Below are positions 9,563-30,238 of a stretch of 64,000 bases of DNA, piece by piece (positions within the stretch are counted from its first letter, which is position 1; each line of letters starts with the position of its first letter). Made by a program: the position numbers and the translations under genes. Under the pieces are notes generated by a model, which was given only the letters and a program-made list of their open reading frames with translations, was not told the origin of the DNA and made no database searches. Source of the DNA: Achromobacter pulmonis (lineage in GTDB: Bacteria; Pseudomonadota; Gammaproteobacteria; Burkholderiales; Burkholderiaceae_B); assembly GCF_902859765.1 (NCBI RefSeq), contig NZ_CADIJV010000021.1, positions 36,964 through 100,963 of the forward strand, given 5' to 3'.

Positions 9563-9624
9563 AGCGCCGCCGGCAACACCATCCCAAAGCAGAACAACCT
9601 ATCCGCACGACGGAGGAGACAATC

Positions 9625-10596
9625 ATGCGCGCAATCGCAGCATGCCGCACGGCCCTGGCCGCGCTTTCCCTGGTGGCAGCCGCCGCCTCGGCCGCCCAGG
9701 ACTGGCCCGCCAAACCCATCACCCTGGTGGTGCCGTACCCGCCGGGCGGCCCCACCGATATCGTGGCCCGCGTGGTCGCGCAGGGCCTGGGCGAAGAACT
9801 GAAGCAGACTATCATCGTCGACAACCGTTCCGGCGCCGGCGGCAACATCGGCGCCGACATGGTGGCCAAGGCCACGCCCGACGGCTATACGCTGCTGCTG
9901 GCGACGACGGCCCACGCCATCAACATGTCGCTGTTCAAGAACCTGAACTACGACACCCGCAAAAGCTTCGCGCCGGTGTCGCTGCTGACCGCCGGCCCGC
10001 TGGTGATCGTGGCGCGGCCGGACTTGCCGGCCGCCAACGTGGGCGAGTTGATCGCGCTGGCCAAATCGACGCCGGGCAAACTGACCTTCGCCTCATCGGG
10101 CAATGGCCAGTCCACGCACCTGGCGGCGGAACTGTTCGACGCCATGGCCGGCGTGCGCATGGTGCACGTGCCATATCGCGGCAGCGCGCCGGCGCTGACC
10201 GACGTCATGGGCGGCCAGGCCGATGTCATGTTCGACACCATGCTGTCGTCGATGCCCTACGTCAAGGGCGGCAAGCTCAAGGCGCTGGCCGTGACCGGCG
10301 CCAGCCGCTCGCCGGCCGCGCCCGATGTGCCCACCGTGGCCGAGGCCGGGCTGCCCGGCTACGAAGCCACCGCCTGGAACGGGCTGCTGGCGCCCGCCGG
10401 CACGCCGGCCGCGGTGGTGCAACGCCTGAGCAGCGCCTTGCAGAACGTACTGGGCCGCCCCGACATCCAGCAGAAATTCGCGGCCCAGGGCTTTGCCTCG
10501 CAATGGAAGACACCCGCCGACACGGCGCGCTTCCTCGATAGCGAGGTCAAGAAATGGGCCGGCGTGGTCAAGACTTCCGGCGCCACGGTCAACTGA
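9625..10596 (+). CDS. Bug-family tripartite tricarboxylate transporter substrate-binding protein
   Basis: 323 residues with an Ala-rich Sec signal peptide (about 1-24, cleavage near AASAAQDWP). The mature part has the Bug hallmarks: PITLVVPYPPGGPTDIVAR, the VDNRSGAGGNIG loop and [10 protein letters not shown] ggaggag Shine-Dalgarno precedes the ATG. These periplasmic receptors bind carboxylates or similar small molecules. No TctA/TctB membrane genes are near, as is usual for the many orphan Bug proteins of Bordetella-like bacteria. Its place inside the acyl-CoA operon suggests it binds the pathway's carboxylic-acid substrate. Confidence 0.92.
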   Translation: MRAIAACRTALAALSLVAAAASAAQDWPAKPITLVVPYPPGGPTDIVARVVAQGLGEELKQTIIVDNRSGAGGNIGADMVAKATPDGYTLLLATTAHAINMSLFKNLNYDTRKSFAPVSLLTAGPLVIVARPDLPAANVGELIALAKSTPGKLTFASSGNGQSTHLAAELFDAMAGVRMVHVPYRGSAPALTDVMGGQADVMFDTMLSSMPYVKGGKLKALAVTGASRSPAAPDVPTVAEAGLPGYEATAWNGLLAPAGTPAAVVQRLSSALQNVLGRPDIQQKFAAQGFASQWKTPADTARFLDSEVKKWAGVVKTSGATVN

Positions 10597-10634
10597 CCCG
10601 GCGCGCCCGCCTTCATCCTATCCAGGGGAGTTCC

Positions 10635-12767
10635 ATGGCTTCTGTACCCACCGGCGACGCCGGCCTCGCGCGCCTGCTCGATCCGGCCTCGATCGCGATC
10701 GTCGGCGCCTCCGACAATCCGGACAAGATCGGCGGCCGGCCCATCCACTACATGCGGCGCCACGGCTATGCGGGCACGCTGTACCCGATCAACCCGCAAC
10801 GCGCCGAAGTGCAGGGCGAGCGCGCCTGGCCCAGCTTGGCCGCGCTGCCGGTGGCGCCGGACCTGGCGATCGTGGCGGTGGCGGGCGAGCAGGCGGTGCG
10901 GGCGGTGGATGACTGCGCCGCGCTGGGCGTGGCGGCGGCCATCGTCATCTCGGCCGGCTTCTCGGAAACCGGCGAGGCCGGCCGCGCCCTGCAGGATGCG
11001 ATGACCGCGCGCGCCCGCGCCGCCGGCATGCGCATCGTCGGCCCCAACTCGCAAGGGTTGGCCAACTTCGGCAACGGCGCCATCGCCAGCTTTTCCACCA
11101 TGTTCCTGGAAGTGGCGCCGGGCGACGGGCCTGTAGCGGTCATCAGCCAGAGCGGCGGCATGTGCGCCATGGTCTACGGCCTGCTGCGCCAGCGCGGCAT
11201 CGGCGTGCGCCATGTGCACGCCACCGGCAACGAGGCCGACGTGTCGGTGGCCGAGCTGGCCTGCGCGACCCTGCGCGATCCGCAAGTCGGCTGCGTGTTG
11301 CTGTACCTGGAATCGCTGCGCGAAGCCGGGCCGCTGGCCGACGCGGCGGCGCTGGCGCGAGCGCGCGGCGTGCCGCTGATCGTGGTGAAGTCGGGCCGCT
11401 CCGAGGCCGGCGCCCGCGCGGCCGCCTCGCATACCGGCGCGCTGGCCAACGAAGACCGCGCCGTCGACGCCTTCTTCGAACACCACGGCATCCTGCGGGC
11501 GCGCGATCCGCAGGAACTGGTGCGCTACGCCGAATTGGCCCTGCGCGCCCCCTTGCCGCAAGGGCCACGCGTGGTGGTGGTCAGCAACTCCGGCGCCAGC
11601 TGCGTGCTGGCCTCGGACGCCGCCGCCGAGCGTGGCCTGGAAATCGCGCCGCTGGCCGATGCCACCCAGCAGGCGCTGGCCGACCGGCTGCCTGGCTACG
11701 CCACCACGGTGAACCCGGTGGACATCACCGCCGCGCTGCTGTCGAACAACGGTCTGTTTGGCCAGGTGCTGCCGGTGATCGGCAGCGACCCGGCGGCCGA
11801 CATGTTCCTGCTGGACATTCCGGTGGCGGGGCGCGGCTACGACGTCGCTTCGTTCGCAACGGATGCGGCCAATTTTGCGCGGGCGGCGTCCAAGCCGGTG
11901 GCGGTGGTGGCCTGGCAGGACAACGTAGCGGCCACCTTCCGCGCGCACGGCCTGCCGGTGTACGCCGACGAGATCCAGGCGATGGATGCGCTGTCGGCGC
12001 TGTTGCGGCTGCGCCGCTTGCGCGAGCGCGACGGCGGGGCCCCCGCATCGCACGGCGTCATGGCGGCCGATCCGGCGCCGGAGGCGGCCGGCGGCTTCCT
12101 GTCCGAAGCGGCCAGTCTTGCGCTGCTGGCCGGCAACGGGCTGGCGGTGATCGAACATGCCCTCTGCCACACGGCCGACGAGGCCGTGGCCGCGTGGCGC
12201 CGGATTGGCGCGCCGGTGGCCTTGAAGGCCTGCTCGGCGCAATTGCCACACAAATCCGAGCACGGACTGGTGGCGCTGGGCCTGGACGACGACGCGTCGC
12301 TGCGCGCGGCGTTTTCCCATCAGGCCCAAACCTTGGGTAAGCTGGGTGTTCGCGACGGCGCCTGGCTGGTGGCGCGGATGCACCGCGGCCTGCACGAATG
12401 CGCCTTGGGCGCGCGCGTCGATCCGGTGCTGGGGCCGGTTGTCATGATCGGCAGCGGCGGCAAGTACGTCGAGGCGCTGCGCGACGTGGCGGTGCTGATG
12501 CCGCCGTTCGATGCCGCGCAGGTGGTCGAGAAACTGCGCGGCCTGCGCGTCGGCGCGCTGCTGCAAGGGGTACGGGGCGATCCGCCAGCCGACGTCGAGG
12601 CGCTGGCGCGGCAGGCCGTGGCGTTGGGCGAATACGCGCGGGCGGCCGGTCCGCGGCTGGCGTCGATCGACATCAACCCGGTGATGGTCGGCGCCGAGGG
12701 GCAAGGCGCGGTGGCGGTGGATGCGCTGGTGGAACTGCATTCCGCCAACGCGCGCGAGGCGGCCTGA
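10635..12767 (+). CDS. ADP-forming acyl-CoA synthetase (fused alpha-beta, acetate-CoA ligase type)
   Basis: 710 residues. The order is a CoA-binding Rossmann domain (about 14-140, starting LLDPASIAIVGASD), a succinyl-CoA-ligase-like flavodoxin domain, the AAASHTGAL segment with the conserved phospho-acceptor His, and a C-terminal ATP-grasp domain (about 490-700). The enzyme forms an acyl-CoA from a carboxylate, CoA and ATP via phosphohistidine, releasing ADP. An aggggag Shine-Dalgarno lies just before the ATG at 10635. It can activate the acid bound by the Bug receptor encoded upstream. A second, AMP-forming ligase ends the same operon. Confidence 0.87.
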   Translation: MASVPTGDAGLARLLDPASIAIVGASDNPDKIGGRPIHYMRRHGYAGTLYPINPQRAEVQGERAWPSLAALPVAPDLAIVAVAGEQAVRAVDDCAALGVAAAIVISAGFSETGEAGRALQDAMTARARAAGMRIVGPNSQGLANFGNGAIASFSTMFLEVAPGDGPVAVISQSGGMCAMVYGLLRQRGIGVRHVHATGNEADVSVAELACATLRDPQVGCVLLYLESLREAGPLADAAALARARGVPLIVVKSGRSEAGARAAASHTGALANEDRAVDAFFEHHGILRARDPQELVRYAELALRAPLPQGPRVVVVSNSGASCVLASDAAAERGLEIAPLADATQQALADRLPGYATTVNPVDITAALLSNNGLFGQVLPVIGSDPAADMFLLDIPVAGRGYDVASFATDAANFARAASKPVAVVAWQDNVAATFRAHGLPVYADEIQAMDALSALLRLRRLRERDGGAPASHGVMAADPAPEAAGGFLSEAASLALLAGNGLAVIEHALCHTADEAVAAWRRIGAPVALKACSAQLPHKSEHGLVALGLDDDASLRAAFSHQAQTLGKLGVRDGAWLVARMHRGLHECALGARVDPVLGPVVMIGSGGKYVEALRDVAVLMPPFDAAQVVEKLRGLRVGALLQGVRGDPPADVEALARQAVALGEYARAAGPRLASIDINPVMVGAEGQGAVAVDALVELHSANAREAA

Positions 12768-17588: not shown

Positions 17589-18653
17589 CTAGTCGCATTG
17601 ATACGTGACACGCGCCAGATCGAACCGGCGCGCCGCGATATCCTGTTCGCGCATCAGGACATAGTAGGCGCCGGGCTGCGGAATGCCGGCATGCGGGTCC
17701 GCGCCGATCTGCAGCACCAGCCGCCAATCGCGCGCGCCGGGCAGCAAGGCCTGCGCTGCCTGGCTCTTCCAGGCCGCATGGCCGCCGCAATCCAGGCCGT
17801 GCGACACCAGTTGGCAGGTCGCCTGCATGCCGTTCTGCAACGATTGCGGATAGCCGCCAAGCTGATGGTTGTCGCGGCCGTCCATGTCCGGCGTGCCGAA
17901 CCGCGAGCGCCAATCCTGGTAGCTTTCGTAGCTATCCTCATCGTCGAACGCAAATGCATCCCAGCCTGCGTCATCGACGCCGATCGGCGTCAGCACCGTG
18001 CGCGCCGAGACCGGGGCCGCTCGGAACACGCAGGTCCACTCGTCATCCGACAGCGAGGCCAACGCCCGCGGCACCGGCGCCCGTTGCAGCGCCGCCGCCG
18101 GCGTGGTGTCCCACAGCACCCGCCAGCCCACCGAGGCGGCGGGGGTGAAACTCTCGGCCTGCTCCAGGAAATCGTAGAACACCAGCAGCCGGCCCTCGCG
18201 CGGCAATGCGGCGTCGAATCCCGGTTCGCGCGACAGCGTGGCCAGGTCGAACTGTCCCAGGAACGTCAACGGGAAGGTCGTCTCCACCGCATCCGCCCGG
18301 GCGCGGGCATCGGCGCTGAAGCGCTCGCCTTGCGCCGGCGTCATCCACGACCGTTGCTTCTTCGACTCCGCCAGCAGGCGGTCGGCCTCCCTTCGATGCC
18401 CCGCCGCGCGCTCGGCCGCATCCGGATAGGCGGGCCGCGTCGGCCAGGCCATGCCGGGCGGCAGGTCGGGGCGCCCGCCGATCTTGCTGGCGCCCAACGG
18501 AATCGCCGCCTCGTCGGCGGTGGCGGTCGCCAGCACCAGCGCGGGACGTGCCTGCGCCAGCAAACGCGCAACTACATCGGCCGGCAGATCAATGTCGTCC
18601 AGCGATCGGCGCAGGGCGTCCAGATCCGAAGGGAGCGGGGTGATATCCATCAT
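17589..18653 (-). CDS. DUF1963 (YwqG-like) family protein
   Basis: 354 residues, predicted soluble. Features match the DUF1963/YwqG family: the GGRPDLPPGMAWP segment near the N-terminus, LTFLGQFDL in the middle and the HQLGGYPQSLQ motif toward the C-terminus. The frame is open to 18695, but aaggagg stands 8 bases before the ATG at 18653 and decides that start. The family has no established enzymatic function; relatives are often stress- or immunity-associated. It stands alone, convergent with the acyl-CoA operon. Confidence 0.82.
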   Translation of the reverse strand: MMDITPLPSDLDALRRSLDDIDLPADVVARLLAQARPALVLATATADEAAIPLGASKIGGRPDLPPGMAWPTRPAYPDAAERAAGHRREADRLLAESKKQRSWMTPAQGERFSADARARADAVETTFPLTFLGQFDLATLSREPGFDAALPREGRLLVFYDFLEQAESFTPAASVGWRVLWDTTPAAALQRAPVPRALASLSDDEWTCVFRAAPVSARTVLTPIGVDDAGWDAFAFDDEDSYESYQDWRSRFGTPDMDGRDNHQLGGYPQSLQNGMQATCQLVSHGLDCGGHAAWKSQAAQALLPGARDWRLVLQIGADPHAGIPQPGAYYVLMREQDIAARRFDLARVTYQCD

Positions 18654-18802
18654 CGGCGAATCCTCCTTGGGTGGGCCGCGCCGCGGCGCGGGCAACGGGC
18701 ATGCCGTTCAACAGCCCCATTCTAGGACGGCGGCATGACATGCCCCTTCGCCCCTCCCGGCCGGCGCATCATCGGCCACCCATACCTACCTACGTCTATC
18801 TA

Positions 18803-18829
18803 TTGACGCGCAAAAGCCGTCGATATCAT
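18803..18829 (+). promoter_or_regulatory. Possible promoter before the PhyH operon
   Basis: TTGACG (18803-18808) and TATCAT (18824-18829) lie 60 bases before the PhyH start, in an unusually AT-rich stretch of the 235-base divergent gap. The 15-base spacing is shorter than ideal for sigma-70, so this is only a candidate. Confidence 0.3.
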
Positions 18830-18888
18830 GGGCACATGGAAGGGCATTGCCTGCCGCGATGCCCGTGATCCGCATCAGGAGCTGCCCC

Positions 18889-19773
18889 ATGTCCCATCAC
18901 CTGTCCAGTGAAGAAGCCGCGGCCTTCGAGAAAGACGGATTCCTCATCGTCCACGAATTGTTCGACCGTGACGCGGTCGCCTCGATGCGGACCGCCATCG
19001 ACACGGTCATCGCCGGCGCGCCCGACCTGCGCCAGATCGCCGAACTCGAACCCGGCGATGCGCGCATCATCCGCCGCATCTGGCAGCCCTCGAAAAAGCA
19101 CGAGGCCTTCCGCCGCATCCAGGAAGACGCGCGCCTGCTCGACCGCCTGGAATCGCTGATCGGGCCCGACATCGTGTTCCACCACAGCAAGCTCAACATG
19201 AAGGGGCCACGCATCGGCTCGCCAGTGGAATGGCACCAGGACTTCTCGTACTACCCGCACACCAATTCCAAGCTGGTGGCCTGCCTGACCTACCTGGACG
19301 ACGCCACCGAGGACAACGGCTGTCTGCGGCTGCTGGCCGGTTCGCACAAGGCCAACGTCTACGACCACACCGAAGACGGCGCCTTTCGCGGCAAGGTCAG
19401 CCCCGCCAACCTGCCGTCGGGCTGCCAGGAAGTGGTGGCCGCCGGCAAGGCCGGCACGGTCGTGTTCCTGCACTGCAAAGTGCTGCACCGCTCCGACGCC
19501 AACCATTCCGACCAGTACCGCCGCGTCTTCATCCCGGCCTATCGCGCCGCCGACGCGCTGCCGATCTACTTCGGCCCGCACGCCGCGCACAACGAACCCG
19601 ACGTCTATCTGCTGCGCGGCCGCCACCGCGCCGAGGTGACGCTGGAAGGCGGGCGCTACCCGCTGCCGATCGCAGCCAAGGCGTTCAACTCGCTGTACGC
19701 GCTGCAGCAGGGCGAGCACCTGCTCAAGGAAGAACTGCACACCCGCGCCAGCGGCTACGCCACCCACGCCTGA
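18889..19773 (+). CDS. Phytanoyl-CoA dioxygenase (PhyH) family Fe(II)/2-oxoglutarate oxygenase
   Basis: 294 residues. The facial triad is visible: His116 and Asp118 in EWHQDFSYY, and His200 in KVLHRSD. Arg211/212 are placed to bind the 2-oxoglutarate carboxylate. Such enzymes hydroxylate small molecules, often in natural-product pathways. It is the first gene of a plus-strand run with two ATP-grasp ligases, a DUF1611 protein and a malic enzyme. A cagga Shine-Dalgarno precedes the ATG. The substrate is probably an amino acid or short peptide, by context only. Confidence 0.88.
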   Translation: MSHHLSSEEAAAFEKDGFLIVHELFDRDAVASMRTAIDTVIAGAPDLRQIAELEPGDARIIRRIWQPSKKHEAFRRIQEDARLLDRLESLIGPDIVFHHSKLNMKGPRIGSPVEWHQDFSYYPHTNSKLVACLTYLDDATEDNGCLRLLAGSHKANVYDHTEDGAFRGKVSPANLPSGCQEVVAAGKAGTVVFLHCKVLHRSDANHSDQYRRVFIPAYRAADALPIYFGPHAAHNEPDVYLLRGRHRAEVTLEGGRYPLPIAAKAFNSLYALQQGEHLLKEELHTRASGYATHA

Positions 19774-19800
19774 TGCGCGTCAGCGTCCAAGGAGACTGGC

Positions 19801-21042
19801 GTGAAACCGCATATCCTGGTGCTCAACCGCTGGCCGCAGCATCGCGGCGGCCCGAAGTGGGACCACGAGCTGTGCCGCTATGACGAGATCATCCCGCCGC
19901 ACTGCGATGTCTCGTACCTGTGCGACGCGGAAGGCACGATCGGACTGCCGGCCTCGGTCGATGGCGCGCGCGTGCGGGTGGCGGACGACATCGGCAACGC
20001 CGCCGAAGCGGCATCGCACGCGGCGCGCCTGGCGGCCCGCCATGGCCCCATCACGCACGTGTTCGCCGGTTCCGAATACCTGCTGGACACGGCGGCGGCG
20101 ATCCGCGCGCGGCTCGGCATCGCCGGCCATACGCCCGAACAGGCTGACCGCTTCCGCGACAAGACCATCATGAAGCGCGTCCTGCGCAACGCCGGCCTGC
20201 GCGTGCCACGTTGGCACGCCTGTACGGACGCCGCCCAGCTCACCGAACAGGCCCGCGAACTGGGCTTTCCGCTGATCATCAAGCCGGTGCGTGGCGCCTC
20301 CAGCAAAGGCGTGCGGCGGATCGACTCGCCGGATGAACTGGCCGCCTTCCTGCGCGCCACGGACCCGGCCGGCCACGAAGTCGAGGAGTTCATCGACGGC
20401 GACATCCTGCACGTCGACGGCGTCATCGACCAGGCGGGCGATTGCCCCTTCCTCTGCGTCAGCCGCTACATCTCGTCCTGCCTGGGCTTCGAGACCGGCG
20501 GCCAGCCACTGGGCTCGGTAATCCAGCGCGACACGCCGCTGGCCACGGATTGCAAGGCCTTCGCGCTGGCCTGCCTGAACGCGCTGGAACTGCGCGGCTC
20601 GGCCTTCCACCTGGAACTGTTCCACCGCGACGGCGAACTGGTATTCCTGGAGGTGGGCGCGCGCGTGCCGGGCGCCGACGTGCCCTACACCATCCACCGC
20701 GCCTACGGCGTCAACCTGTTCCAACTGTGGGTCGAGGTGATGCTGGGCCAGCCCGCGCGCCCACGCGCGGCCGCCGCGCCGAAGGCGGCCGGCTGGATCA
20801 CCTTTCCGCGGCCCCGCCCGCTGCCGCGCAAGGTGGTATCGGCCAACTCGCTGGTCGGCGTCGTGCCCGGCGTGTATCGCGAGCTGATCCCGGCGCCCGA
20901 GCAATACCTGAAGGACACCGGCGGCGGCTACACGCACATGCAGGGCGGCCGCTTCCTGGTCGAAGGGGAAGACGAAAGCCAGGTGCTGGCCGCCCTGGAC
21001 GCCATCAAGCAGCGCTACGTACTGAAGACCCTGCCCGCCTGA
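19801..21042 (+). CDS. ATP-grasp ligase (first of two)
   Basis: 413 residues with a GTG start and aaggag 5 to 10 bases upstream. The ATP-grasp core covers about 110-310: FRDKTIMKRVL, then IIKPVRGASSKGV for the nucleotide lysine, and FLEVGARVPGAD carrying the metal-binding acidic residue. The C-terminal third (FPRPRPLPRKVV...) resembles the carnosine-synthase/BacD-like group that joins amino acids through an acyl phosphate. It lacks the biotin-carboxylase or purine-enzyme extensions. It likely makes an amide bond in a small peptide. The substrate is unknown. Confidence 0.85.
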   Translation: MKPHILVLNRWPQHRGGPKWDHELCRYDEIIPPHCDVSYLCDAEGTIGLPASVDGARVRVADDIGNAAEAASHAARLAARHGPITHVFAGSEYLLDTAAAIRARLGIAGHTPEQADRFRDKTIMKRVLRNAGLRVPRWHACTDAAQLTEQARELGFPLIIKPVRGASSKGVRRIDSPDELAAFLRATDPAGHEVEEFIDGDILHVDGVIDQAGDCPFLCVSRYISSCLGFETGGQPLGSVIQRDTPLATDCKAFALACLNALELRGSAFHLELFHRDGELVFLEVGARVPGADVPYTIHRAYGVNLFQLWVEVMLGQPARPRAAAAPKAAGWITFPRPRPLPRKVVSANSLVGVVPGVYRELIPAPEQYLKDTGGGYTHMQGGRFLVEGEDESQVLAALDAIKQRYVLKTLPA

Positions 21043-21076
21043 GCGCCGCTCCGGCAACCACCTTTGGGAGATTTGA

Positions 21077-22168
21077 ATGGACACGCTTTCTCATGCTGAA
21101 CTGCTTGCCAAGCCTTGCGTGGTGTTCGCCGAAGGCTGCTTCGGACTGTTCACCAGCAAGGTCGCCGCCTCGTTCCTGCGCTATCGCCCGGAAAACTGCC
21201 TGGCCGTTATCGACAGCACGCAGGCGGGCAAGCGGGTACAGGACGTGATCGGCTGGGGCGGCGACATCCCCATCGTCAAGGACATCGAAAGCGCGCTGGC
21301 GCTCAAGCCCGAGGTGCTGGTGATCGGCAAGGGCCTGCATTCGGCGCAGTTGCCGCCGGAGTGGAAGGCGCCCATCAAGACCGCCATGCTCAACGGCCTG
21401 CACATCATCAACTGCATCCACTTCCGGCTGCGCTCCGATCCCGACCTGGCGCGCGCCGCCGACCAGACCGGCATCACCATCTGGGAAACCAAGGAACCGG
21501 TGCCGCTGGAACTGAACAAGGCGCGCGTGCTGGAACTGTCGTGCTTCGTGGCGCATACCTGTGGCAGTGATTCCAACATCGGCAAGAAGACCACCGCCCT
21601 GGAAATCACCCGCGAAGCCACGCGCCGCGGCATCGCCACGGGCTTCGCCGCCACCGGCCAAAGCGGCATGATGATTTCAGGCACCGGCATCGTGGTGGAC
21701 TGCATCCCCAGCGACTTCGTCGCCGGCGCAGCCGAAAAAGCGGTGCTGGACGCGGCCGAGGGCAACGACTGGGTGGTGCTGGAAGGGCAGGGGTCGCTCA
21801 ACCACATCGGCGCCAGCGGCATCGCCCTGGCCCTGCTGCACGGCGGCCTGCCGCATGCGCTGGTGTTCTGCCACCGCCTCGGGCTGGAACGCACCAAGGT
21901 CTGGAACACCCCGCTGCGGCCGATCCCCGAACTGATCCGCCTGAATGAGCAACTGACCGTGTTCGAACGTCCCGCCAAGGTGGTGGCCATCAGCGTCAAC
22001 AGCGCCGGTTTCAGCGACGCCGACTACCGCGCGCAGGTCAAACAGCTTGAAGCAGAGACCGGCCTGCCGGTGGTGGACCCCTGCCGCGAAGGCGCCGGCA
22101 TCCTGGTCGATGCGCTGCAGGCCTATCAGCGCAGCTTGCAGCAGCGCGAACAGCTGGCCGAGGCCTGA
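21077..22168 (+). CDS. DUF1611 / DgcN-like P-loop protein
   Basis: 363 residues. An N-terminal Rossmann-like half is followed by a nucleotide-binding half whose loop reads GSDSNIGKKTT at about 163-173. This matches the DUF1611 family. One characterised member, DgcN, is reported to act as a D-glutamate N-acetyltransferase together with the racemase DgcA, but no DgcA-like gene is present. A tgggag Shine-Dalgarno precedes the ATG. It lies between two ATP-grasp ligases (gaps of 34 and 2 bases), implying action on the same small substrate. Confidence 0.82.
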   Translation: MDTLSHAELLAKPCVVFAEGCFGLFTSKVAASFLRYRPENCLAVIDSTQAGKRVQDVIGWGGDIPIVKDIESALALKPEVLVIGKGLHSAQLPPEWKAPIKTAMLNGLHIINCIHFRLRSDPDLARAADQTGITIWETKEPVPLELNKARVLELSCFVAHTCGSDSNIGKKTTALEITREATRRGIATGFAATGQSGMMISGTGIVVDCIPSDFVAGAAEKAVLDAAEGNDWVVLEGQGSLNHIGASGIALALLHGGLPHALVFCHRLGLERTKVWNTPLRPIPELIRLNEQLTVFERPAKVVAISVNSAGFSDADYRAQVKQLEAETGLPVVDPCREGAGILVDALQAYQRSLQQREQLAEA

Positions 22169-22170
22169 CC

Positions 22171-23505
22171 ATGAAGGAAGCCGTGCTGCTCCTGATGCAC
22201 CAGGGCAATTCCTTCACCGCCGAGCTGCATGAGCGGCTGGCCGCGCGCGGCATCGCGCTGGTCGCCATCAGCTCGCGGCCGGCGGACATGGCGGTGCTGG
22301 AGCGCAACCAGCCGCTGCTGGACGCCTGGGTGGTGGGCGCAGGCCCCGAGCTGTCCGACGCCGACGTGCGCGCGGGCGTGGCGCAACTGGCGCAGCGCGG
22401 CTACCGCTTCCTGGCCGCCATTGCCACCTTCGAAGGCTACCGCCTGTTCATGGCGGACCTGAACCACGCCTTCGGCGCGCCCGACGTGCCGCGCGTGGCG
22501 CTGGAACGGGCGCTGCACAAGCATCGCTGCCGCGAGTTCCTGCTGATGCAGGGCCTTAGCGCCGCCACCTGCCGCCTGATCCCGGCCGGCAGCGGCGCCG
22601 ATGCCGCCGGCCTGGATCCGCAGCGCAAATGGTTCATCAAGCCGGTGCGCGGCGCGGCCTCGTTCGGCTGCTTCATCCTGGAAAACCGCGACGACTTGAC
22701 CGACGTGCCGGCGATGCAGGCGCAGATGCTCAAGGACGGCAAGTTGGCGGCGATCTTCATGGGCCGCTATGACTTCTTCGCCGAGGAATACATCGAAGGC
22801 CCGGAGTTCAGCTACGAGATCGTGGCGGCGGCGGGCCGGCCGCGCGTTCTCTGCGTGCATGAAAAGGCGCGGGTCGAACGCCTGCCGCGCACCACCCTGG
22901 AAAGCATGTCGATATCGCCGCCGCTCTCGCTGCCGGTGGACACGCTGCGCGAAGGCGAACGCTTCGTGGCCGAATGCCTGACGCGCATGGGGCTGGGCGA
23001 GGGCGCCTACCACGTCGAAATGAAGTACTGGCAGGCCCGGCGGCGCTGGGAAATCATCGAGATCAACCCGCGCATGGGCGGCAGCCTGATCAACGCCAGC
23101 ACCACGCGCGCCACCGGCGCATCCATCCTCGACCTGTGGCTGCGGACGCTGCTGGCGCGCGCGCCGGACGACATCGCCGCCTTCCATGCGCAGGCCGACG
23201 CCGTGGCGCAGCTCGATCGCCTGGACCGCGACGACGACCGCCGCGCGGTCGTTTTCATCAGCAAGTACGGCAAGAAGGGGGCCACTGTGGATTCCATCGA
23301 CTACGACACCAGCGGGCATTCGCCGGACCTGCTGGAATTCCATGTCAAACCCGGCACGCGGTTGGAGGACTCCGACCGCGCCATCTGCGTCATGGACGCG
23401 CTGTGGCAGGTCGACCGCGCCGCGCTGGCGGACGCCGTTGAATCCATCGACCGCGAATCGGACGAGAACTTCCGCATCACCTATCAGGCCGCCCAGGGCG
23501 TGTGA
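22171..23505 (+). CDS. ATP-grasp ligase (second of two)
   Basis: 444 residues, start 2 bases after the DUF1611 stop, so translationally coupled. The ATP-grasp domain spans about 110-330: KHRCREFLL, FIKPVRGAASFGCF (nucleotide lysine), EEYIEGPEFSYEIV and the metal-binding EIIEINPRMGGSLIN. It is clearly distinct from the first ligase, so two different amide or ester bonds may be formed. Relatives include L-amino-acid ligases. Purine or carbamoyl-phosphate enzymes are unlikely because the flanking domains differ. Confidence 0.86.
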   Translation: MKEAVLLLMHQGNSFTAELHERLAARGIALVAISSRPADMAVLERNQPLLDAWVVGAGPELSDADVRAGVAQLAQRGYRFLAAIATFEGYRLFMADLNHAFGAPDVPRVALERALHKHRCREFLLMQGLSAATCRLIPAGSGADAAGLDPQRKWFIKPVRGAASFGCFILENRDDLTDVPAMQAQMLKDGKLAAIFMGRYDFFAEEYIEGPEFSYEIVAAAGRPRVLCVHEKARVERLPRTTLESMSISPPLSLPVDTLREGERFVAECLTRMGLGEGAYHVEMKYWQARRRWEIIEINPRMGGSLINASTTRATGASILDLWLRTLLARAPDDIAAFHAQADAVAQLDRLDRDDDRRAVVFISKYGKKGATVDSIDYDTSGHSPDLLEFHVKPGTRLEDSDRAICVMDALWQVDRAALADAVESIDRESDENFRITYQAAQGV

Positions 23506-23551
23506 CCCGCAAGCGCCATCGCACCCTCCCACCCTCGCAGAGGCACGATCC

Positions 23552-24715
23552 ATGACCGAAGCACTGCTGGCGCCGCAGGACCTGACCCATCCCGCCTTCG
23601 ATGTCCACCTGGGCGGCAAGCTGGAAATCCGCGGCCGCGTCGCCATCGAGTCGCGCGAAGACCTGGCGCGCGCCTACACGCCGGGCTTTGCCTACGTGGC
23701 CGCCGCGATCCAGCGCGACCCCGCGCTGCTGGCGCGTTACACCATGCGCCAGAACACCGTGGCCATTGTCACCGACGGCACGGCGGTGTCCGGCATCGGC
23801 GACGTCGGCCCGAAGGCCGCTCTGCCGGTCATGGAGGGCAAGGCGCTGGTGTTCAAGCGCTTCGCCGGCATCAACGCGATCCCGATCTGCCTGGACACCA
23901 AGCACAGTGGCGAGATCATCGACACGGTGCGGCGCATCGCGCCGGGCTTCGGCGCCATCATGCTGGAAGACATCTCGGCGCCGCGCTGCTTCGAGATCGA
24001 AGACGCGCTGCACCGCGAATTGCAGATTCCCGTGCTGCACGACGACCAGCATGCCACCGCGATTTCGGCCGGCGCGGCGCTGATCAACGCCCTCAAGCGC
24101 GTCGGCAAGCGGCTGGACCAGATCAAGGTGGTGATGGTGGGCGCGGGCGCCGCCGGCACCGGCTGCGCCAAGATCTTCCTGGCCCTGGGCGTGCAGCGGC
24201 TGATCGCCTGCGATCGCGCCGGCGCCATCCACCGCAAGCGCACCGACCTGAACCCGGCCAAGGCCTGGTTCGCCGCGCATACCAACCCGCTGCAGGAAAG
24301 CGGCAGCCTGGGCGAAGTCATGGCCGGCGCCGACGTATTCCTGGGCGTCTCCGGCCCCGGCGTCATCACGGTGGCGGACGTGGCGCGCATGGCGCGCGAC
24401 CCGATCCTGTTCGCGCTGGCCAACCCCACCCCCGAGATCCTGCCCAGCGAAGTGGCCGGCCTGGCCGCCATCGTCGCCACCGGCCGCAGCGACCTGCCCA
24501 ACCAGATCGACGGCGGCCTGGCGTATCCGGGACTGTTCAAGGGCATCCTGGACAGCGGCGCGCCGCGTTTCACCGATGCGATGAAGTGCGCGGCGGTCTA
24601 CGCCCTGGCCGGTCTGGTCGACGCGGCGGAACTGGACGCCGGCCGCATCATTCCCGACATCTTCGACGAACTGGTGATGCCGTCGGTGGCGGCCGCGGTG
24701 GCCGCCGCCGCGTGA
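23552..24715 (+). CDS. Malic enzyme (oxaloacetate-decarboxylating malate dehydrogenase)
   Basis: 387 residues, the short bacterial form without the phosphotransacetylase-like extension. Conserved points: Tyr42 (AYTPGF), Lys96 (MEGKALVF), metal ligands in MLEDISAPRCF and DDQHATAI, and the nucleotide loop VGAGAAGTG. It would convert malate to pyruvate and CO2 with reduction of NAD(P). As the last gene of the plus-strand cluster it may supply pyruvate or NADPH, or act on a malate-like intermediate. The FAYVAAAI segment after the active Tyr differs from the usual VAEPC sequence, hinting at a different substrate. Confidence 0.87.
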   Translation: MTEALLAPQDLTHPAFDVHLGGKLEIRGRVAIESREDLARAYTPGFAYVAAAIQRDPALLARYTMRQNTVAIVTDGTAVSGIGDVGPKAALPVMEGKALVFKRFAGINAIPICLDTKHSGEIIDTVRRIAPGFGAIMLEDISAPRCFEIEDALHRELQIPVLHDDQHATAISAGAALINALKRVGKRLDQIKVVMVGAGAAGTGCAKIFLALGVQRLIACDRAGAIHRKRTDLNPAKAWFAAHTNPLQESGSLGEVMAGADVFLGVSGPGVITVADVARMARDPILFALANPTPEILPSEVAGLAAIVATGRSDLPNQIDGGLAYPGLFKGILDSGAPRFTDAMKCAAVYALAGLVDAAELDAGRIIPDIFDELVMPSVAAAVAAAA

Positions 24716-24769
24716 CCCTCGGCCCACCGCCGGGCTCGCTCGCACCGCCGGCACGGCCCGTGTGCGGCA

Positions 24770-25303
24770 TCATGAACGATCCAGCAGCGCGGCCCGCACC
24801 CGCGCCGGCAGGGCGTAATCCGCCGCGCAGGCCCGCGCCGGGGCGCCGCGATGGCGGCGGCCATGGTGGCGCGAGCCGGCATCGCTCAGCAACTCGACGC
24901 CGCGTACCGCCGCCATGGTGCGATTGGTCACGCCGAGCTTCTTGAACAGCATGCCGACATGCATCTTGACCGTCACCAGCTCGATGCCAAGCAGATCGGC
25001 GATGGTCTTGTTCTGATGCCCTTCGATGATGTATTGGAGGATCTCGTGCTGGCGCGACGACAGGGGAATGAAGGCGGGTTCGGCATCCGCCTCATGCGCG
25101 CCGGACCCATGGCCCGGCGCAGCGGTCCGGCCTTCCGCGTCTTCACGTGCATCGCCGGACTCGGCCGGTTCGGCCGGCGCGTTTTCATGTGTCGCATTCG
25201 TGTAGAGCTTGATTTGTCTGGCCACGTATACCTCCCACACCGCCTTAACGAAGTTGCGTTCGAATCGCGGGCGCCGGGGCGGCGCCGGCGACGTGCTACT
25301 CAT
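24770..25303 (-). CDS. Short LuxR-type HTH regulator
   Basis: 177 residues. The GerE/LuxR helix-turn-helix lies at about 75-140: LSSRQHEILQYIIEGHQNKTIADLLGIELVTVKMHVGMLF in order. The roughly 70 residues before it are low-complexity and Asp/Glu/Ala-rich, with no receiver, PAS or autoinducer domain. A basic His/Arg/Ala tail follows. Its ATG overlaps the stop of the EPSP-synthase-like gene by 8 bases, so it is co-translated and probably controls this cluster. Confidence 0.85.
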   Translation of the reverse strand: MSSTSPAPPRRPRFERNFVKAVWEVYVARQIKLYTNATHENAPAEPAESGDAREDAEGRTAAPGHGSGAHEADAEPAFIPLSSRQHEILQYIIEGHQNKTIADLLGIELVTVKMHVGMLFKKLGVTNRTMAAVRGVELLSDAGSRHHGRRHRGAPARACAADYALPARVRAALLDRS

Positions 25304-26639
25304 CGGCCGCTTCCAGGTAATACTGCCGGGTCGTGGCGCAGGACACGCCCAGGCCGCGGAACTGGTCGATGAAATCAGGAAAGGAACAGATCACATCGGC
25401 GTAGCCGTCGAGGTGGCAGGCCTCCTCGCAGCGCAGCGATGCGACGAACAACGACATGAAATTGCGATGGTCGCCACGGCTGCTGAGCGTCACGCCGCCG
25501 GCATAGCGTGGCCGTCCGCGCGTCACGAAGCCGTCGATGTGGCCATCGACATGCCGCAGCATTTCGATGTCGGCACCCAGCTTGCGCACCTCGCCGATCA
25601 TCGACTCCACCCGCGACGACTTGTGAAACCGCGTGACCGATCCTCCGGTCACCGTGAACGTGCCGCGCACGAACAGACTCAAGGCCACCAGCGTGGGAAT
25701 CACATTGGGGCCGTTGCGCACGTCGAAGGTGTAGTTGCCCTCCAGGCGCGCACTGGTGCTGTCGACGTGCAGCATGCCATCGTCGTAGCGCAGCCGCACC
25801 CCCAGCGCCTCGACGATGTCGGCGAACAGCTTTTCGCCCTGCAGCGTCTCTTCTTCGATGCCGCCGATCCGGTAGCGGCCCGGAAACAGCGTACACGCCA
25901 TCAGCAAGTACGACAGCGAGGTGTAGTCGGCGTTGATGCGGGTCTCGAACGGCTGGTACACCCCCGGCGCGACGTGGTAACGCGTGTACTCGGGGTTGAC
26001 CTGCGCATCGATGCCGCAACAGCGCAGCGTTTCCACCGTCTGCGCCAGGTAGGACTGCGACAGCACTGGCGGCGTCACCTCCAGGCTGATGCCTTGCCGC
26101 GTCAGCGGCGCCGCCATCAGAATCGCGGTGATGAACTGCGAGCTGATGTCGCCCGCCAGCCGGCAGTGCTTGCCGCTTAGCGACGCGCCCCAGTTGATCA
26201 CCGGCGCCTTGCCCTCATCGCCCAGGCAGGCGAAGTTCGCCCCCAGGTGGCGCAGGCCATCCAGCAGCGGTTGCATCACGCGGCGGCGCAGGGTCGCGTC
26301 GCCGGTCAGGATGGTGGGGGTCGCCTTCATGCAGCTCAACGCCATCATGGTGCGGAACACCAGGCCGGATCCCTTGGCGTCGATGACCTCGATGCTCGAC
26401 GCGAAGCGGCCGCCGGTGCCTGTGATGAACAGCGCCCCGGCGGCCTCTTCGATCTTCGCGCCGAGTTGGCCGCAGGCGATCTTCATGGTCTCGGTCTCGG
26501 TGCAGCGCAGATCGTTGCGGATGATGGACGTGCCGTCCGCCAGCGTGGCGGCGAGGATGGCGCGTTGCGTTTCGGGCTTGGACGCCGGAACATTCATCCG
26601 GGTGCCCAGTTCCTTGATCGGTTCGACGCGTAGATACAT
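25296..26639 (-). CDS. EPSP-synthase-like enolpyruvyl transferase homologue, altered active site
   Basis: 447 residues with the AroA/MurA inside-out barrel signatures: VPASKPETQRAIL near the N-terminus, LAGDISSQFITAILMAAP at 162-178, and SRGDHRNFM at 387-395. By manual comparison with E. coli AroA, Lys22, Arg27, Ser169-Ser170-Gln171, Arg344 and Arg386 are kept. The catalytic Asp313 is Asn312, Glu341 is Lys340, and Lys411 is Cys418. This suggests different chemistry from shikimate biosynthesis. It sits between a diiron-like oxygenase gene and a LuxR gene. Shine-Dalgarno ggag precedes the ATG at 26639. Confidence 0.8.
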   Translation of the reverse strand: MYLRVEPIKELGTRMNVPASKPETQRAILAATLADGTSIIRNDLRCTETETMKIACGQLGAKIEEAAGALFITGTGGRFASSIEVIDAKGSGLVFRTMMALSCMKATPTILTGDATLRRRVMQPLLDGLRHLGANFACLGDEGKAPVINWGASLSGKHCRLAGDISSQFITAILMAAPLTRQGISLEVTPPVLSQSYLAQTVETLRCCGIDAQVNPEYTRYHVAPGVYQPFETRINADYTSLSYLLMACTLFPGRYRIGGIEEETLQGEKLFADIVEALGVRLRYDDGMLHVDSTSARLEGNYTFDVRNGPNVIPTLVALSLFVRGTFTVTGGSVTRFHKSSRVESMIGEVRKLGADIEMLRHVDGHIDGFVTRGRPRYAGGVTLSSRGDHRNFMSLFVASLRCEEACHLDGYADVICSFPDFIDQFRGLGVSCATTRQYYLEAADE

Positions 26640-26769
26640 GCTTTCTCCACGTAAGTTGAAGGCTGACAGGCCCCCGCGGGAACAGCGCCCCGCGCGCGCG
26701 GGCCGACACCGCCGGCCCCGCGGCCGCGCCTGCCGGGGCGCGCCGCTCGGGGCCCGGCCAGGCGCCTTA

Positions 26770-27522
26770 TCAGGCGGCCGCCTTTTCGGCCGGCCGCTGC
26801 ACCGTGTCCTCGTAGATTTCGCGGAAGAACATCGCCAGGATGGCCTGGACGTCGTCGATGTACTTGAAGACGGCGTTGTAGTCGTCTTCGCTGAGAATCA
26901 GCTGGTTCAGGATCTTCCACATCTCCATCGAATGGTCGTCGCGCGTATCGACCGTCAGATGGGCTTCCTGGCCCTTGACCATGTCATGGCCCAGCGTGGT
27001 GCGCAGGTTCTTGACGATGTCGGGCTGCAGCTTGGCCTGGGTGTATTCGACCAGATAGTTCGACACCACCGGGGCCATCGGATGCTCGTGTTCCAGCGTG
27101 TAGTAGAAAAAGCCCTCGAACAGCCGCGTCGACAGGTAAGGCTCGGTCTTGAGCACCTCGTCCATCGTCACCCCGGCCGCCTCGCAGTCGTGGATATACA
27201 GCTTGTCGTGCAGCATCTCGTCGGCCTGGTAGTGGGCATAGTCCTGCGCCGCCGAGGGTGAGATCTGGGCGATCTTGTAGATCGCCTTGGACTGGCTGAC
27301 CCGCGACAGGCGGATGCGCCAGATGTGCTCGATCAGGGTGCGGCGGTAATACGCCATGTTGATGTTCTTGTCCTTCATGTGGGACGCGTACGGAATGGTC
27401 TGCCGCCATTCCTCCATCTTCTTGTCCAGATAGCGGTCGATCTTGGCCTTGCGCTTGAGGCCTTCGGCTTCGTTGAAGTAGGGGGTGGGATGCTGTATGC
27501 CGGAATGGCGCACTCGGTTCAT
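26770..27522 (-). CDS. Haem-oxygenase-like diiron protein (TenA/PqqC/HDO fold)
   Basis: 250 residues, mostly helical. Candidate metal ligands are spread as in haem-oxygenase-like diiron oxidases: Glu65 (LIEHIWR), Glu102 and His105 (DEMLHD), Glu159 (YLVEYT), His188 (EAHLTVD) and Asp192. Members oxidise amino acids and small molecules in natural-product pathways (C-C cleavage or N-oxygenation). The frame opens at 27564, but a ggag 7 bases before the ATG at 27522 and lost similarity upstream favour 27522. It is first of the minus-strand trio. Ligand assignment is by eye. Confidence 0.72.
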   Translation of the reverse strand: MNRVRHSGIQHPTPYFNEAEGLKRKAKIDRYLDKKMEEWRQTIPYASHMKDKNINMAYYRRTLIEHIWRIRLSRVSQSKAIYKIAQISPSAAQDYAHYQADEMLHDKLYIHDCEAAGVTMDEVLKTEPYLSTRLFEGFFYYTLEHEHPMAPVVSNYLVEYTQAKLQPDIVKNLRTTLGHDMVKGQEAHLTVDTRDDHSMEMWKILNQLILSEDDYNAVFKYIDDVQAILAMFFREIYEDTVQRPAEKAAA

Positions 27523-27905: not shown

Positions 27906-29297
27906 TCATTCACGTGCAAGAATCCGTAAAAAACTCACAACACACGCGACAGCCGCCAGCAGGGCGCCGATCCACAGCGCCGCCTGCGCGCCCCCGGCGC
28001 CCAGCAACGTGAAACAGGCCGCCACCAGCGCCGCCCCCGACGCCTGGCCGATCAGCCGGGCCGTGGGGATGATGCCGCTGGCCGCGCCGCTGCGCTCGGC
28101 CGGCGCGCTGGTCGTCAAGGCCTTGAGATTGGGCGACTGGAAGAATCCGAAGCCGGCCCCGCACACCGCCAGCCGCCAGATGATGTCCGCATCCGACGCC
28201 CGCGCCGGCAGCAGCGCCACCAGCACCATGCCGACGCACAGCACCAGCAGCCCGCCGCCGCCCAGCAGCGCCACCGAACGGCGTTCCGACAGGAAGCCGG
28301 CCAGCGGCGCGGTCACCGCCACCACCACCGGCCAGGCGGTCAGGAGCAGGCCCGTCTGCACATCGGAACGCCCCAGGCTCATCTGGAACAGAAACGGCAA
28401 CGCCACCAGCGCCAAGCCCTGCGACGCGTACGACAGCACGGACGTGGCCACCGACATGGCGAACAGCGGCCGCCGGAACAGATCCACCGGCAGCATGGGC
28501 GCCGGATGCGCGCGCTGGCGCCGCAGCAGCAGGGCGCAGCACAGCGCCGCGGCGGCGGCCTCGGGCAGGATGCGCGCCCAGCCCGCATGGTGGGCCGCGT
28601 CGCCCAGCGCCAGCACGGCCAGCGCGAAGGTCGCGCCCAGCAGCAACGCCGCCACGCCATCGAAACGCGGCGGCGCCTTGCGCGGGGGATTGTGCGGCAG
28701 CGTGCGCCAAGCCATCGCCATGGCCAGCGCCCCCAGCGGGATATTGATCAGGAACAGCCAGTGCCACGTGCTGACCGCCAGCACCGCCGACGCCACCGAG
28801 GGCCCCACCACGTAGAACACCGCCACGGTGAACGCATTGATGCCCTGCGCGCGGCCGATCTGACTGCTGGGAAACGTCAGCCGGATCAGCGCGGTGCCGA
28901 CCCCCAGAATGCCCGACGCGCCCACGCCCTGCAACACGCGCGCCGCCGTCAGCATCGGCAGCGAATCGGCCACGCCACAGGCCAGCGACGCCAGCGTGAA
29001 CACCAGCAGGCCATACAGGTAGACACGGCGGTGGCCGACGATGTCGCCCAGCGCCGCGAACGGCAGCAGCGTGGCGACCATGGCGATCTGGTAGGCGTTG
29101 ATGATCCAGATCGACGCGTCCGGCGTGGTGCGCAGGTCCGCCGCGATAGTCGGCAGCGCGGTGTTGGCGATGGAGGTATCGAGCGTGGCGATGGCGCTGC
29201 CCAGGATGAGCGTGGACACCGCCCAGAGCCTTTGCCGGCCCGGCAGGCCGTCGCCGATCTGCGGCAACGCCAGGGTGCTTTCAGAGGAGGACGACAT
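27906..29297 (-). CDS. DHA2-family MFS drug exporter (EmrB/QacA-like)
   Basis: 463 residues with about 14 hydrophobic helices. It shows the motif-C-like GPSVASAVLAVSTWHWLFLINIPLG stretch in two parts, the early LDTSIANTALPTIA signature of DHA2 exporters and the ARVLQGVGAS segment. The open frame reaches 29453, but the aggag 9 bases before the ATG at 29297 decides this start. It probably exports drugs or a metabolite. It lies upstream, on the same strand, of the diiron/EPSPS-like operon (383-base gap) and is divergent from a GntR regulator. Confidence 0.87.
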   Translation of the reverse strand: MSSSSESTLALPQIGDGLPGRQRLWAVSTLILGSAIATLDTSIANTALPTIAADLRTTPDASIWIINAYQIAMVATLLPFAALGDIVGHRRVYLYGLLVFTLASLACGVADSLPMLTAARVLQGVGASGILGVGTALIRLTFPSSQIGRAQGINAFTVAVFYVVGPSVASAVLAVSTWHWLFLINIPLGALAMAMAWRTLPHNPPRKAPPRFDGVAALLLGATFALAVLALGDAAHHAGWARILPEAAAAALCCALLLRRQRAHPAPMLPVDLFRRPLFAMSVATSVLSYASQGLALVALPFLFQMSLGRSDVQTGLLLTAWPVVVAVTAPLAGFLSERRSVALLGGGGLLVLCVGMVLVALLPARASDADIIWRLAVCGAGFGFFQSPNLKALTTSAPAERSGAASGIIPTARLIGQASGAALVAACFTLLGAGGAQAALWIGALLAAVACVVSFLRILARE

Positions 29298-29378
29298 GCG
29301 GGACGGCTCCTGGGCGGCGTCCGGGGCGCGCGGCGGATACGGCCGTGGCAGGGCGCGGGGAAGGCGGTCAGTTGTCAG

Positions 29379-29391
29379 GCTGTAAGACAGC
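29379..29391. promoter_or_regulatory. Palindrome GCTGT-AAG-ACAGC in divergent promoter region
   Basis: A perfect 5-base inverted repeat 82-94 bases before the MFS start and 116-128 bases before the GntR start, in the only gap shared by these divergent genes. It is a candidate operator for the GntR protein. Confidence 0.3.
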
Positions 29392-29506
29392 ATAGCAAGG
29401 CATGACCCGCCCCGCAACGGGACCGCGCCCGGCGCCGGGCGAAGCGATATCATGACGCCATGGCGCTGCCCGCCGGCGTTGTTGCGCCTTTGGATAGGAA
29501 GCAGAC

Positions 29507-30238
29507 ATGCAAGTCATCGAGCGTCCGCAGACCCTGGTAGACCAGGTCATCGCGGCCCTGCGCAAAGAGATCGCCGAAGGCCGCTTCGCGCCCGCCTCGC
29601 GCCTGCCGGCCGAACAGGAACTGGCGCGCACGCTGGGCTGTAGCCGCCCGGTCATCCGCGAAGCCGTCTCGCAACTGAAGGCCGACGGCATCCTCGTCAC
29701 CACCAAGGGCGTGGGCGCTCACGTCGCCGCCAACCCCGCCGGCAGCGTGTTGCGCCTGCCGCGCGGCGATGCCTCGGCCAAGGACCTGGCGCAGCTGTTC
29801 GAGCTGCGCTTCTGGATGGAAACCGCCGCCGCCGAAGCCGCCGCCCTGCGCCGCAAGACCGCCGACCTGGCGCGCATGCGCGACGCGCTCACGCGCATGG
29901 AACGGCACGCCGGCGACTATCCCGCCGCGTCCAAGGCCGACGTCGACTTCCACGCCGCCATCGCCGGCTCGACCCAGAACGCCTACCTGGTGGCCTTCAG
30001 CGGCTTCATCGAAGGCCAACTGCTCAAGGCGCGCGAAATGGGCTGGCAGAATTCCGCCCGGCTGGCCGGCGGACCGCGCCCCGCGCAACAGGAACATCTG
30101 CGCCTGTTCGACGCCATCCGGGCCAAGGACCCCGAAGGCGCGCGGCAGGCCGCCGCCGCGCATCTGCTGGCCTCGGGCCGGCGCATGGGCCTGGACGTGC
30201 AGAAACTGGAACGCTTCGGCCCTGCCGCCGGGCGCTGA
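29507..30238 (+). CDS. GntR/FadR-family regulator (FCD domain)
   Basis: 243 residues. The GntR winged helix (about 8-75) contains the typical RLPAEQELARTLGCSRPVIREA. The C-terminal FCD domain (about 90-225) carries the metal-binding Asp/His set (DVDFHAAIAGS and EHLRLFDAI). FCD regulators respond to carboxylic acids. It is divergent from the DHA2 exporter with a 209-base shared gap, so it may control that exporter. Confidence 0.9.
   Translation: MQVIERPQTLVDQVIAALRKEIAEGRFAPASRLPAEQELARTLGCSRPVIREAVSQLKADGILVTTKGVGAHVAANPAGSVLRLPRGDASAKDLAQLFELRFWMETAAAEAAALRRKTADLARMRDALTRMERHAGDYPAASKADVDFHAAIAGSTQNAYLVAFSGFIEGQLLKAREMGWQNSARLAGGPRPAQQEHLRLFDAIRAKDPEGARQAAAAHLLASGRRMGLDVQKLERFGPAAGR

Follow-up and report, generated by a model that had tools for sequence, protein, structure and literature searches.

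The window analysed here is a 64,000-nucleotide stretch of Achromobacter pulmonis (contig NZ_CADIJV010000021.1, positions 36,964 to 100,963 of the forward strand), from a host genome (G000) of 5.67 Mb in 91 contigs. Between positions 18889 and 27522 it carries eight genes in two convergent operons, with a haem-oxygenase-like diiron oxidase (HDO) and an EPSP-synthase homologue (EPSPSl) on one strand and a PhyH-type oxygenase, two ATP-grasp ligases, a DUF1611 protein and a malic-enzyme-like protein on the other:

18889..19773, plus strand: PhyH-type iron/2-oxoglutarate (Fe/2OG) oxygenase (Pfam PhyH 1.3e-34; HxD and distal His/Arg kept; hydroxylase-like)
19801..21042, plus strand: ATP-grasp ligase 1, ATPg1 (Pfam ATP-grasp 4.6e-10; nearest PDB entry 3vot, 6e-14)
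21077..22168, plus strand: DUF1611 protein, Rossmann plus P-loop (Pfam 8.8e-60; distant from the DgcN N-acetyltransferase)
22171..23505, plus strand: ATP-grasp ligase 2, ATPg2 (Pfam ATP-grasp_4 2.2e-14; sole PDB match 3vot, 2.1e-13)
23552..24715, plus strand: malic-enzyme-like oxidative decarboxylase (Pfam malic N and M domains; nearest PDB entry 5cee, 5.2e-111)
24770..25303, minus strand: short LuxR-type (GerE) regulator (Pfam GerE 1.7e-15; stretches 45-74% identical in relatives)
25296..26639, minus strand: EPSPSl (Pfam EPSP_synthase 1.7e-67)
26770..27522, minus strand: MboA-like HDO (Pfam Haem_oxygenas_2 9.4e-7, barely above the cut-off; nearest PDB entry MboA, 9ypi, 5e-15)

Every gene named in the original prediction corresponded to a long open frame at roughly the position given there, and Pfam assignments together with gap measurements bore out its account of these families as tightly spaced in two convergent runs. 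Gene starts were adopted at 18889 (PhyH), 23552 (malic-like gene) and 27522 (HDO). Gaps on the plus strand were 27, 34, 2 and 46 bp, while on the minus strand the LuxR and EPSPSl genes overlapped by 8 bp and EPSPSl and HDO were separated by 130 bp; the converging ends lay 54 bp apart. Transcription as two operons is suggested by this spacing, and a promoter and terminator scan gave signals no more numerous than in shuffled sequence. The complete gene set recurred in other genomes, with identities from 45% (LuxR) to 87%, and the arrangement therefore goes beyond chance.

Searching genome contigs with EPSPSl returned three loci, all from Burkholderia (L004, sp. TSV86; L005, B. singularis; L006, B. 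multivorans WS-FJ9), where the same genes stood in the same convergent order within reach of the stretches compared. Among the 65 genomes of the genus group of L004, an HDO was found in 12 at E <= 1e-20 and a close HDO (E 3e-121 or better) in 8, and in all 8 of the latter EPSPSl, DUF1611 and ATPg2 adjoined it. Related loci were sorted into types A to E, names coined in this analysis. Type A, the layout of the window with two convergent operons and all eight genes, was represented by seven genomes (the window, L004 with L087, L005, L006, L077, L078 with L102, and L079 with L103), every one of which held the complete set, with enzymes 60-87% identical to those of the window. In L004 the contig stopped about 0.1 kb beyond the DUF1611 match, and PhyH and ATPg1 were found at the start of another contig (L087); L102 and L103 likewise hold the remainder of the L078 and L079 clusters. 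The PhyH gene of L005 extended beyond the stretch compared and was full length in the genome, and that of L006 contained unread bases. In four of the seven loci (L004, L005, L078 and L079) both operons were retained around a four-gene insert (enolase-superfamily protein, EamA transporter, lipocalin-like protein and LysR regulator). The lipocalin-like/LysR pair of this insert (L004, 14300-15849) also stood beside two type B clusters (L080, 5649-7171; L081, 12610-14132), and a lipocalin-like gene with no LysR match was present in L024. A Rep3 plasmid-type initiator gene near the L006 cluster (18144-19388) hints at a plasmid or integrated replicon.

Type B was found in three loci, L024 (G099, a different family of the same order) and L080 and L081 (genus group of L004), and placed on a single strand the genes for DUF1611, EPSPSl, PhyH, a HisC-like aminotransferase, ATPg1, ATPg2, HDO and a [2Fe-2S] ferredoxin. 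SsuE-like and luciferase-like genes (an SsuD/SsuE-like pair) and a different major facilitator superfamily (MFS) transporter lay nearby, and no malic-like gene was found in any of the three loci. The six genes common to types A and B (PhyH, ATPg1, DUF1611, ATPg2, EPSPSl and HDO; type B products 37-55% identical to those of the window) are thus constant, and one step is swapped. Since both operons are kept in all seven type A genomes and their shared genes are united in all three type B loci, the two operons are best read as one pathway. This agrees with the single biosynthetic cluster of the original prediction, which would have fallen had the operons failed to co-occur in other genomes; the neighbourhoods showed the opposite. 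Several relatives are close kin (L004/L005, L006/L077 and L080/L081) and genomes were drawn unevenly, so that these counts are not frequencies.

Type C consisted of ten loci (L025, L026, L031, L035, L037 on a Burkholderia stagnalis plasmid, L038 on a Streptomyces plasmid, and L082-L085) with ferredoxin, HDO and ATPg2 genes in 10/10 and an ATPg1-like gene in 9/10, L035 ending at a contig edge. No match to EPSPSl, PhyH, DUF1611 or the malic-like protein was obtained in any of the ten within the 17.7-22.7 kb covered. ATPg2 was accordingly the constant partner of HDO in types A, B and C. In a midpoint-rooted tree ATPg2 split into A plus B versus C with support 100/100; in the corresponding HDO tree A and B each formed a supported set, the branching order was not resolved, and C was not a single set. 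A [2Fe-2S] ferredoxin (Fer2) gene adjoined HDO in all 13 type B and C loci, and was found in 0/7 type A loci. The Streptomyces cyaneofuscatus plasmid locus (L038, 9648-15810) carried an oxidoreductase, the ferredoxin, HDO and three ATP-grasp/biotin-carboxylase-type genes, placing the type C module also in Actinomycetota.

In the order, 12 of 399 genomes gave an HDO match at E <= 1e-3, with only four strong (G000, G099, G208 and G177); in the window's family the figure was 5 of 268, two of them strong (G000 and G411), and the G411 protein (34% identity) was not accompanied by the rest of the cluster. The family of G099 gave 4 of 43 genomes, and at E <= 1e-20 the class gave 1 of 369 (the window's own) and the phylum 3 of 398.

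The best PDB sequence match of HDO was MboA, the mangotoxin acetylenase. Residues were mapped onto MboA by a HMMER alignment and by an alignment of 24 rows (21 different sequences), from which weak HDO matches (L011-L018, L021-L023, L034/L036, L070 and L073-L076) were left out. All six metal ligands (3-His/3-carboxylate), as well as Asp90 and the base Tyr82 in MboA numbering, were identical in 24/24 rows; in the window these residues are E102, H105, E159, H188, D192 and H197, with D106 and Y98. The three residues of MboA that read the guanidinium group, N57, D61 and D139, corresponded to S73, Q77 and N155 in 7/7 type A proteins and to S, H and S in 3/3 of type B. Type C carried E (8/10) or Q (2/10) at position 61 and, like type B, S at position 139, and four more distant HDOs (L027, L039, L040 and L086) kept D at 61. 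With the guanidinium-reading residues changed, Arg is unlikely to be the substrate of the type A and B enzymes, although the Q at 61 in two type C loci makes the correlation between residue and type an imperfect one. Arg71 and Arg74 were considered as a mark of an anionic substrate and dropped, type C HDOs sharing both. The AlphaFold model of HDO (pLDDT, the predicted local distance difference test, 87.3) matched the HDO-fold structures 3dde, CADD and UndA; MboA was not among the 50 structural matches listed, from a library ending in April 2026. In L040 (Paraburkholderia sabiae, 7983-11080) an MboA-like HDO gene, whose product keeps both N57 and D61, adjoins small frames, one of them annotated ATP-grasp, and a full ATP-grasp gene; the locus is on a symbiotic plasmid, flanked by nif and nod genes.

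EPSPSl was compared in 14 copies (14 different sequences): the window, L024 and 12 copies from 11 of the 65 genomes of the L004 genus group, detected by a profile search at E <= 1e-70. Eight of these 12 lay in type A or B clusters, and the other four (L098-L101) had no HDO nearby. EPSPSl is homologous to AroA over its full length and differs from it in its PhyH neighbourhood and in substitutions invariant in 14/14 copies relative to the Escherichia coli enzyme (S23P, D49E, N94G, T97L, D313N, K340H, E341K and K411C), besides P101T or V and N336V or I. Thirteen of the 23 active-site positions compared, whose roles are given here as commonly assumed, were kept (K22, R27, G96, R100, R124, S169, S170, Q171, S197, Y200, R344, H385 and R386); D313, E341 and K411 we take to be the catalytic residues of AroA. 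A separate host AroA on contig 29 of G000 was canonical at all of these positions, kept and changed, except for N336 (S). The substrate cradle and most contacts to phosphoenolpyruvate (PEP) look preserved in EPSPSl, and the replacements of the catalytic acids and of one lysine are the same in every copy, a combination that suggests neofunctionalisation rather than a spare EPSP synthase. The predicted model of EPSPSl was mediocre (pLDDT 73.9) and was not used. Among plasmids 19 records matched, all at 30.4% identity or below and 12 of them annotated aroA, and no named plasmid copy of EPSPSl was found among them.

The same PhyH partnered EPSPSl in 14/14 cases, whether adjacent, in the sister operon or (L004) across the contig break, and four of these loci (L098-L101) had neither HDO nor ligases. 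Type E (L098 and L099) consisted of genes for LysR, EPSPSl, PhyH and a DHA2-family transporter, to which type D (L100, 6380-17602; L101, 565-11772) added a two-subunit thiamine pyrophosphate (TPP) decarboxylase, an aldehyde dehydrogenase and an argininosuccinate-synthase-related gene. The split TPP enzyme resembled sulfopyruvate/phosphonopyruvate decarboxylase but fell below the NCBIfam cut-off (116.7 versus 147.95), and the DHA2 gene of L101 (565-1956) was 85% identical to that of L098. Identities of EPSPSl and PhyH were correlated across loci (r 0.79, 66 pairs from 12 loci, shared ancestry uncorrected). The nearest PDB entry of PhyH was ectoine hydroxylase (4mhr, 4.3e-19), and the segment WHQDFSYYPHTN was identical in 13 of the 14 aligned copies, the L005 copy being cut by the stretch end. 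Retention of HxD in Fe/2OG enzymes argues against a halogenase, and halogenation by PhyH is therefore unlikely. Because the gene swapped among three architectures (aminotransferase, malic-like enzyme or TPP decarboxylase) would use or make an alpha-keto acid in each case, EPSPSl and PhyH may lead to such an acid. Tentatively, the pair could form a portable two-gene module with a new chemistry on the enolpyruvyl-transferase fold (catalytic Asp to Asn, Glu to Lys and Lys to Cys). Its product would be a keto- or hydroxy-acid block not yet described, routed in four ways: into peptides via the malic-like enzyme (A) or a transaminase (B), by TPP decarboxylase together with aldehyde dehydrogenase (D), or directly out of the cell by export (E).

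Both ligases were nearest to the L-amino acid ligase BL00235 (3vot), which makes ATPg1 and ATPg2 candidate peptide-bond-forming L-amino acid ligases. The DUF1611 protein scored 197.5 bits against the DgcN model NF041892 (cut-off 480), for a family that NCBIfam names an N-acetyltransferase, and the pattern GSDx3GK was present in 8/10 copies, L080 and L081 being without it. A racemisation route for D-acidic amino acids is described with DgcN as a key component (PMC12363236, partial text). For the window protein, acyl transfer or a ligase-like reaction can only be guessed at. The malic-like protein kept AYTPG, PVMEGK, LEDISAPRCFEIE and HDDQH, presumably the catalytic motifs of malic enzymes, in the window and three aligned relatives, with small variants such as VYTPG. 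PNQIDG was present in 7/7 type A copies in place of the PNQVNN or PNQINN of the solved enzymes aligned, a motif to which we assume a functional role in malic enzymes, and malate itself is therefore doubtful as the substrate.

We propose, with a probability of roughly 0.58, that the cluster encodes one pathway to a short peptide made with neither a non-ribosomal peptide synthetase nor the ribosome. An alpha-keto or alpha-hydroxy acid would be the precursor from which EPSPSl, PhyH, the malic-like enzyme and DUF1611 build an unusual amino acid lacking a guanidinium group, and ATPg1 and ATPg2 would join this residue to ordinary amino acids in a di- or tripeptide. HDO, using O2, would then desaturate the side chain of this C-terminal residue, and the product would probably be exported and act as an antimetabolite. 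The predicted product is an alkene and not an alkyne, since type A carries no dedicated redox partner. MboA is reported to convert the C-terminal Arg of Leu-Ala-Arg, a peptide made by two ATP-grasp ligases, to an alkene, and with the reductase MboB to an alkyne, the alkene being seen in trace amounts when MboB is left out (PMC13185094, partial text). With an alkene formed in this way, a type A pathway would be expected to stop there or to borrow a housekeeping reductant. The modified dipeptide or amino-acid-derived metabolite originally predicted is thereby sharpened, the relatives suggesting that ligases make a short peptide which an MboA-type HDO oxidises.

Several points weigh against this proposal. 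MboA and the window HDO are only distantly similar, HDOs catalyse many reactions, and full turnover by MboA needs the kind of redox partner that the type A cluster lacks. The D313N change may leave EPSPSl with little transferase activity, and the role given to DUF1611 depends on a family named after one distant member. Type B lacks the malic-like gene and type A the aminotransferase, so that the residues made by the two may differ. The relatives are partly close kin, their counts not being independent, and the product and substrates proposed are read from sequence.

Of the other explanations, the one that survives best, though we consider it unlikely, is that the product is no peptide, the ATP-grasp enzymes amidating or ligating other acids and HDO oxidising an amino acid by N-oxygenation or C-C cleavage. 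The breadth of HDO chemistry (PMC13108848, partial text) and the distance of the similarities to 3vot and MboA would allow this, but an amino acid ligase and a peptide oxidase are what the three enzymes most resemble among solved structures, and Tyr82 and Asp90 are kept. Somewhat less probable again is an anionic unsaturated peptide with a phosphate, phosphonate or sulfonate side chain, akin to the phosphonopeptides rhizocticin and plumbemycin. It would fit the neutral residues found in type A and B HDOs where MboA has acidic guanidinium readers, the split decarboxylase beside EPSPSl-PhyH in L100 and L101, and the type B aminotransferase, nearest to HisC, with its SsuD/SsuE-like pair. That decarboxylase is however below its family cut-off, Arg71 and Arg74 are not specific, and EDKx5NS, which we take to be the motif of PEP mutase, was not found in the 106 sources scanned (951 kb with overlaps), the remaining host genome being unsearched.

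It is improbable that EPSPSl serves as a spare or resistance-conferring EPSP synthase protecting the producer from its own product: a homologue beside a biosynthetic cluster with 13/23 active-site positions kept might suggest as much, but the presumed catalytic D313, E341 and K411 are replaced identically in 14/14 copies and kept by the host AroA, and the TIGR01356 cut-off of NCBIfam was failed (263.4 versus 287.25 bits). Two independent operons side by side by chance, with separate functions, are the least probable of all, for despite their opposite strands in type A and the separate occurrence of four EPSPSl-PhyH and ten HDO-ATP-grasp loci, both are held together across seven genomes at 60-87% enzyme identity even around an insert in four, type B unites both gene sets, and PhyH and EPSPSl, in opposite operons in type A, are adjacent in L098-L101.

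Two further genes follow the cluster in the window:

27906..29453, minus strand: DHA2-family MFS transporter, neighbour (start 29453 or 29297; Pfam MFS_1 1.4e-58)
29507..30238, plus strand: GntR/FCD regulator, flank, divergent from DHA2

Within the family of the window the cluster had a patchy distribution. About 0.4 kb separates the flanks (positions 18746 and 30261) in G407, which thus lacks the cluster, DHA2 and GntR altogether. G436, of the same genus, carried a 95% identical DHA2 and the GntR gene at the equivalent place without the cluster, and DHA2 (85-86%) was likewise present without it in G438 and G408. Here, DHA2 therefore belongs to the genus locus and not to the cluster, and the suggestion that this transporter exports the product does not hold for this genome. 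Elsewhere DHA2 genes did adjoin related clusters: two of type A (L006 and L077, 63%) and all four of types D and E. An EamA gene was carried by the four type A loci that gave no DHA2 match; some exporter is usual with the cluster, and its identity varies. At the cluster position in G436 (L049, 3661-7755), FecI/FecR/TonB-receptor-like genes were read by eye, and the site thus seems to accept different cargo. Further along the window, a frame of 2,920 amino acids on the minus strand (36523-45285) showed haemagglutinin repeats in the part scanned and represents a filamentous-haemagglutinin-like gene.

An enolpyruvyl transferase homologue, an HDO and an ATP-grasp ligase also occur together in the polyoxin and nikkomycin pathways, which are nucleoside pathways. 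PolF is an azetidine-forming HDO (PMC13108848, partial text). The enzyme combination of these pathways is similar to that described here, whereas no nucleoside genes were seen at the window cluster, and the likeness is one of description and not of sequence. Rhizocticin and plumbemycin are ATP-grasp-joined peptides with a beta,gamma-unsaturated C-terminal residue, the unsaturation arising by a different route; their peptide logic resembles that proposed for the window, where the loci scanned yielded no PEP mutase motif. VarO, which we take to come from thiovarsolin, a system of ribosomally synthesised and post-translationally modified peptides, is also comparable by description, not sequence, as a desaturating HDO of the kind proposed. 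It is about 30% identical to MboA and is reported to desaturate a similar substrate by loss of H2 (PMC13185094, partial text). Also among the closest known systems is the mangotoxin (mbo) operon of Pseudomonas syringae, which like the window holds an MboA-group HDO and two ATP-grasp amino-acid ligases (PMC13185094, partial text). Metal ligands, Asp90 and Tyr82 are shared between the two; N57/D61/D139 there stand against S/Q/N here, and the window adds EPSPSl, PhyH, DUF1611 and the malic-like enzyme. The two sets of ligases are likened by family and role, not by sequence. An MboB-type reductase and an MboE deiminase were not among the families assigned at 18.7-29.5 kb, the remaining genome being unsearched for them.

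No title or abstract was found that describes this gene set or joins these families (subscription papers, preprints and supplements being outside the scope), in keeping with the undescribed status suggested in the original prediction. PMC13185094 (partial text) refers to a supplementary figure (S2C) for 25 or more types of cluster that hold both HDO and ATP-grasp genes, and type A, B or C may already be drawn there. A report on B. singularis LMG 28155 (L005 is LMG 28154), in the portion available, describes inhibition of some pathogens with no fraction active; it was set aside, no link to the cluster being apparent.

If the proposed reading is true, the cluster would add a pathway to the small class of ATP-grasp/HDO peptides of which mangotoxin is the worked example. 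It would also show the fold of EPSP synthase, familiar from textbooks and as the target of a herbicide, put to a different chemical use and coupled to a single oxygenase in the 14 loci examined. The step swapped across the four architectures (decarboxylating dehydrogenase, transaminase or TPP decarboxylase) narrows what EPSPSl and PhyH may produce, and clusters with and without a ferredoxin would be predicted to differ in whether they stop at the alkene or continue beyond it.

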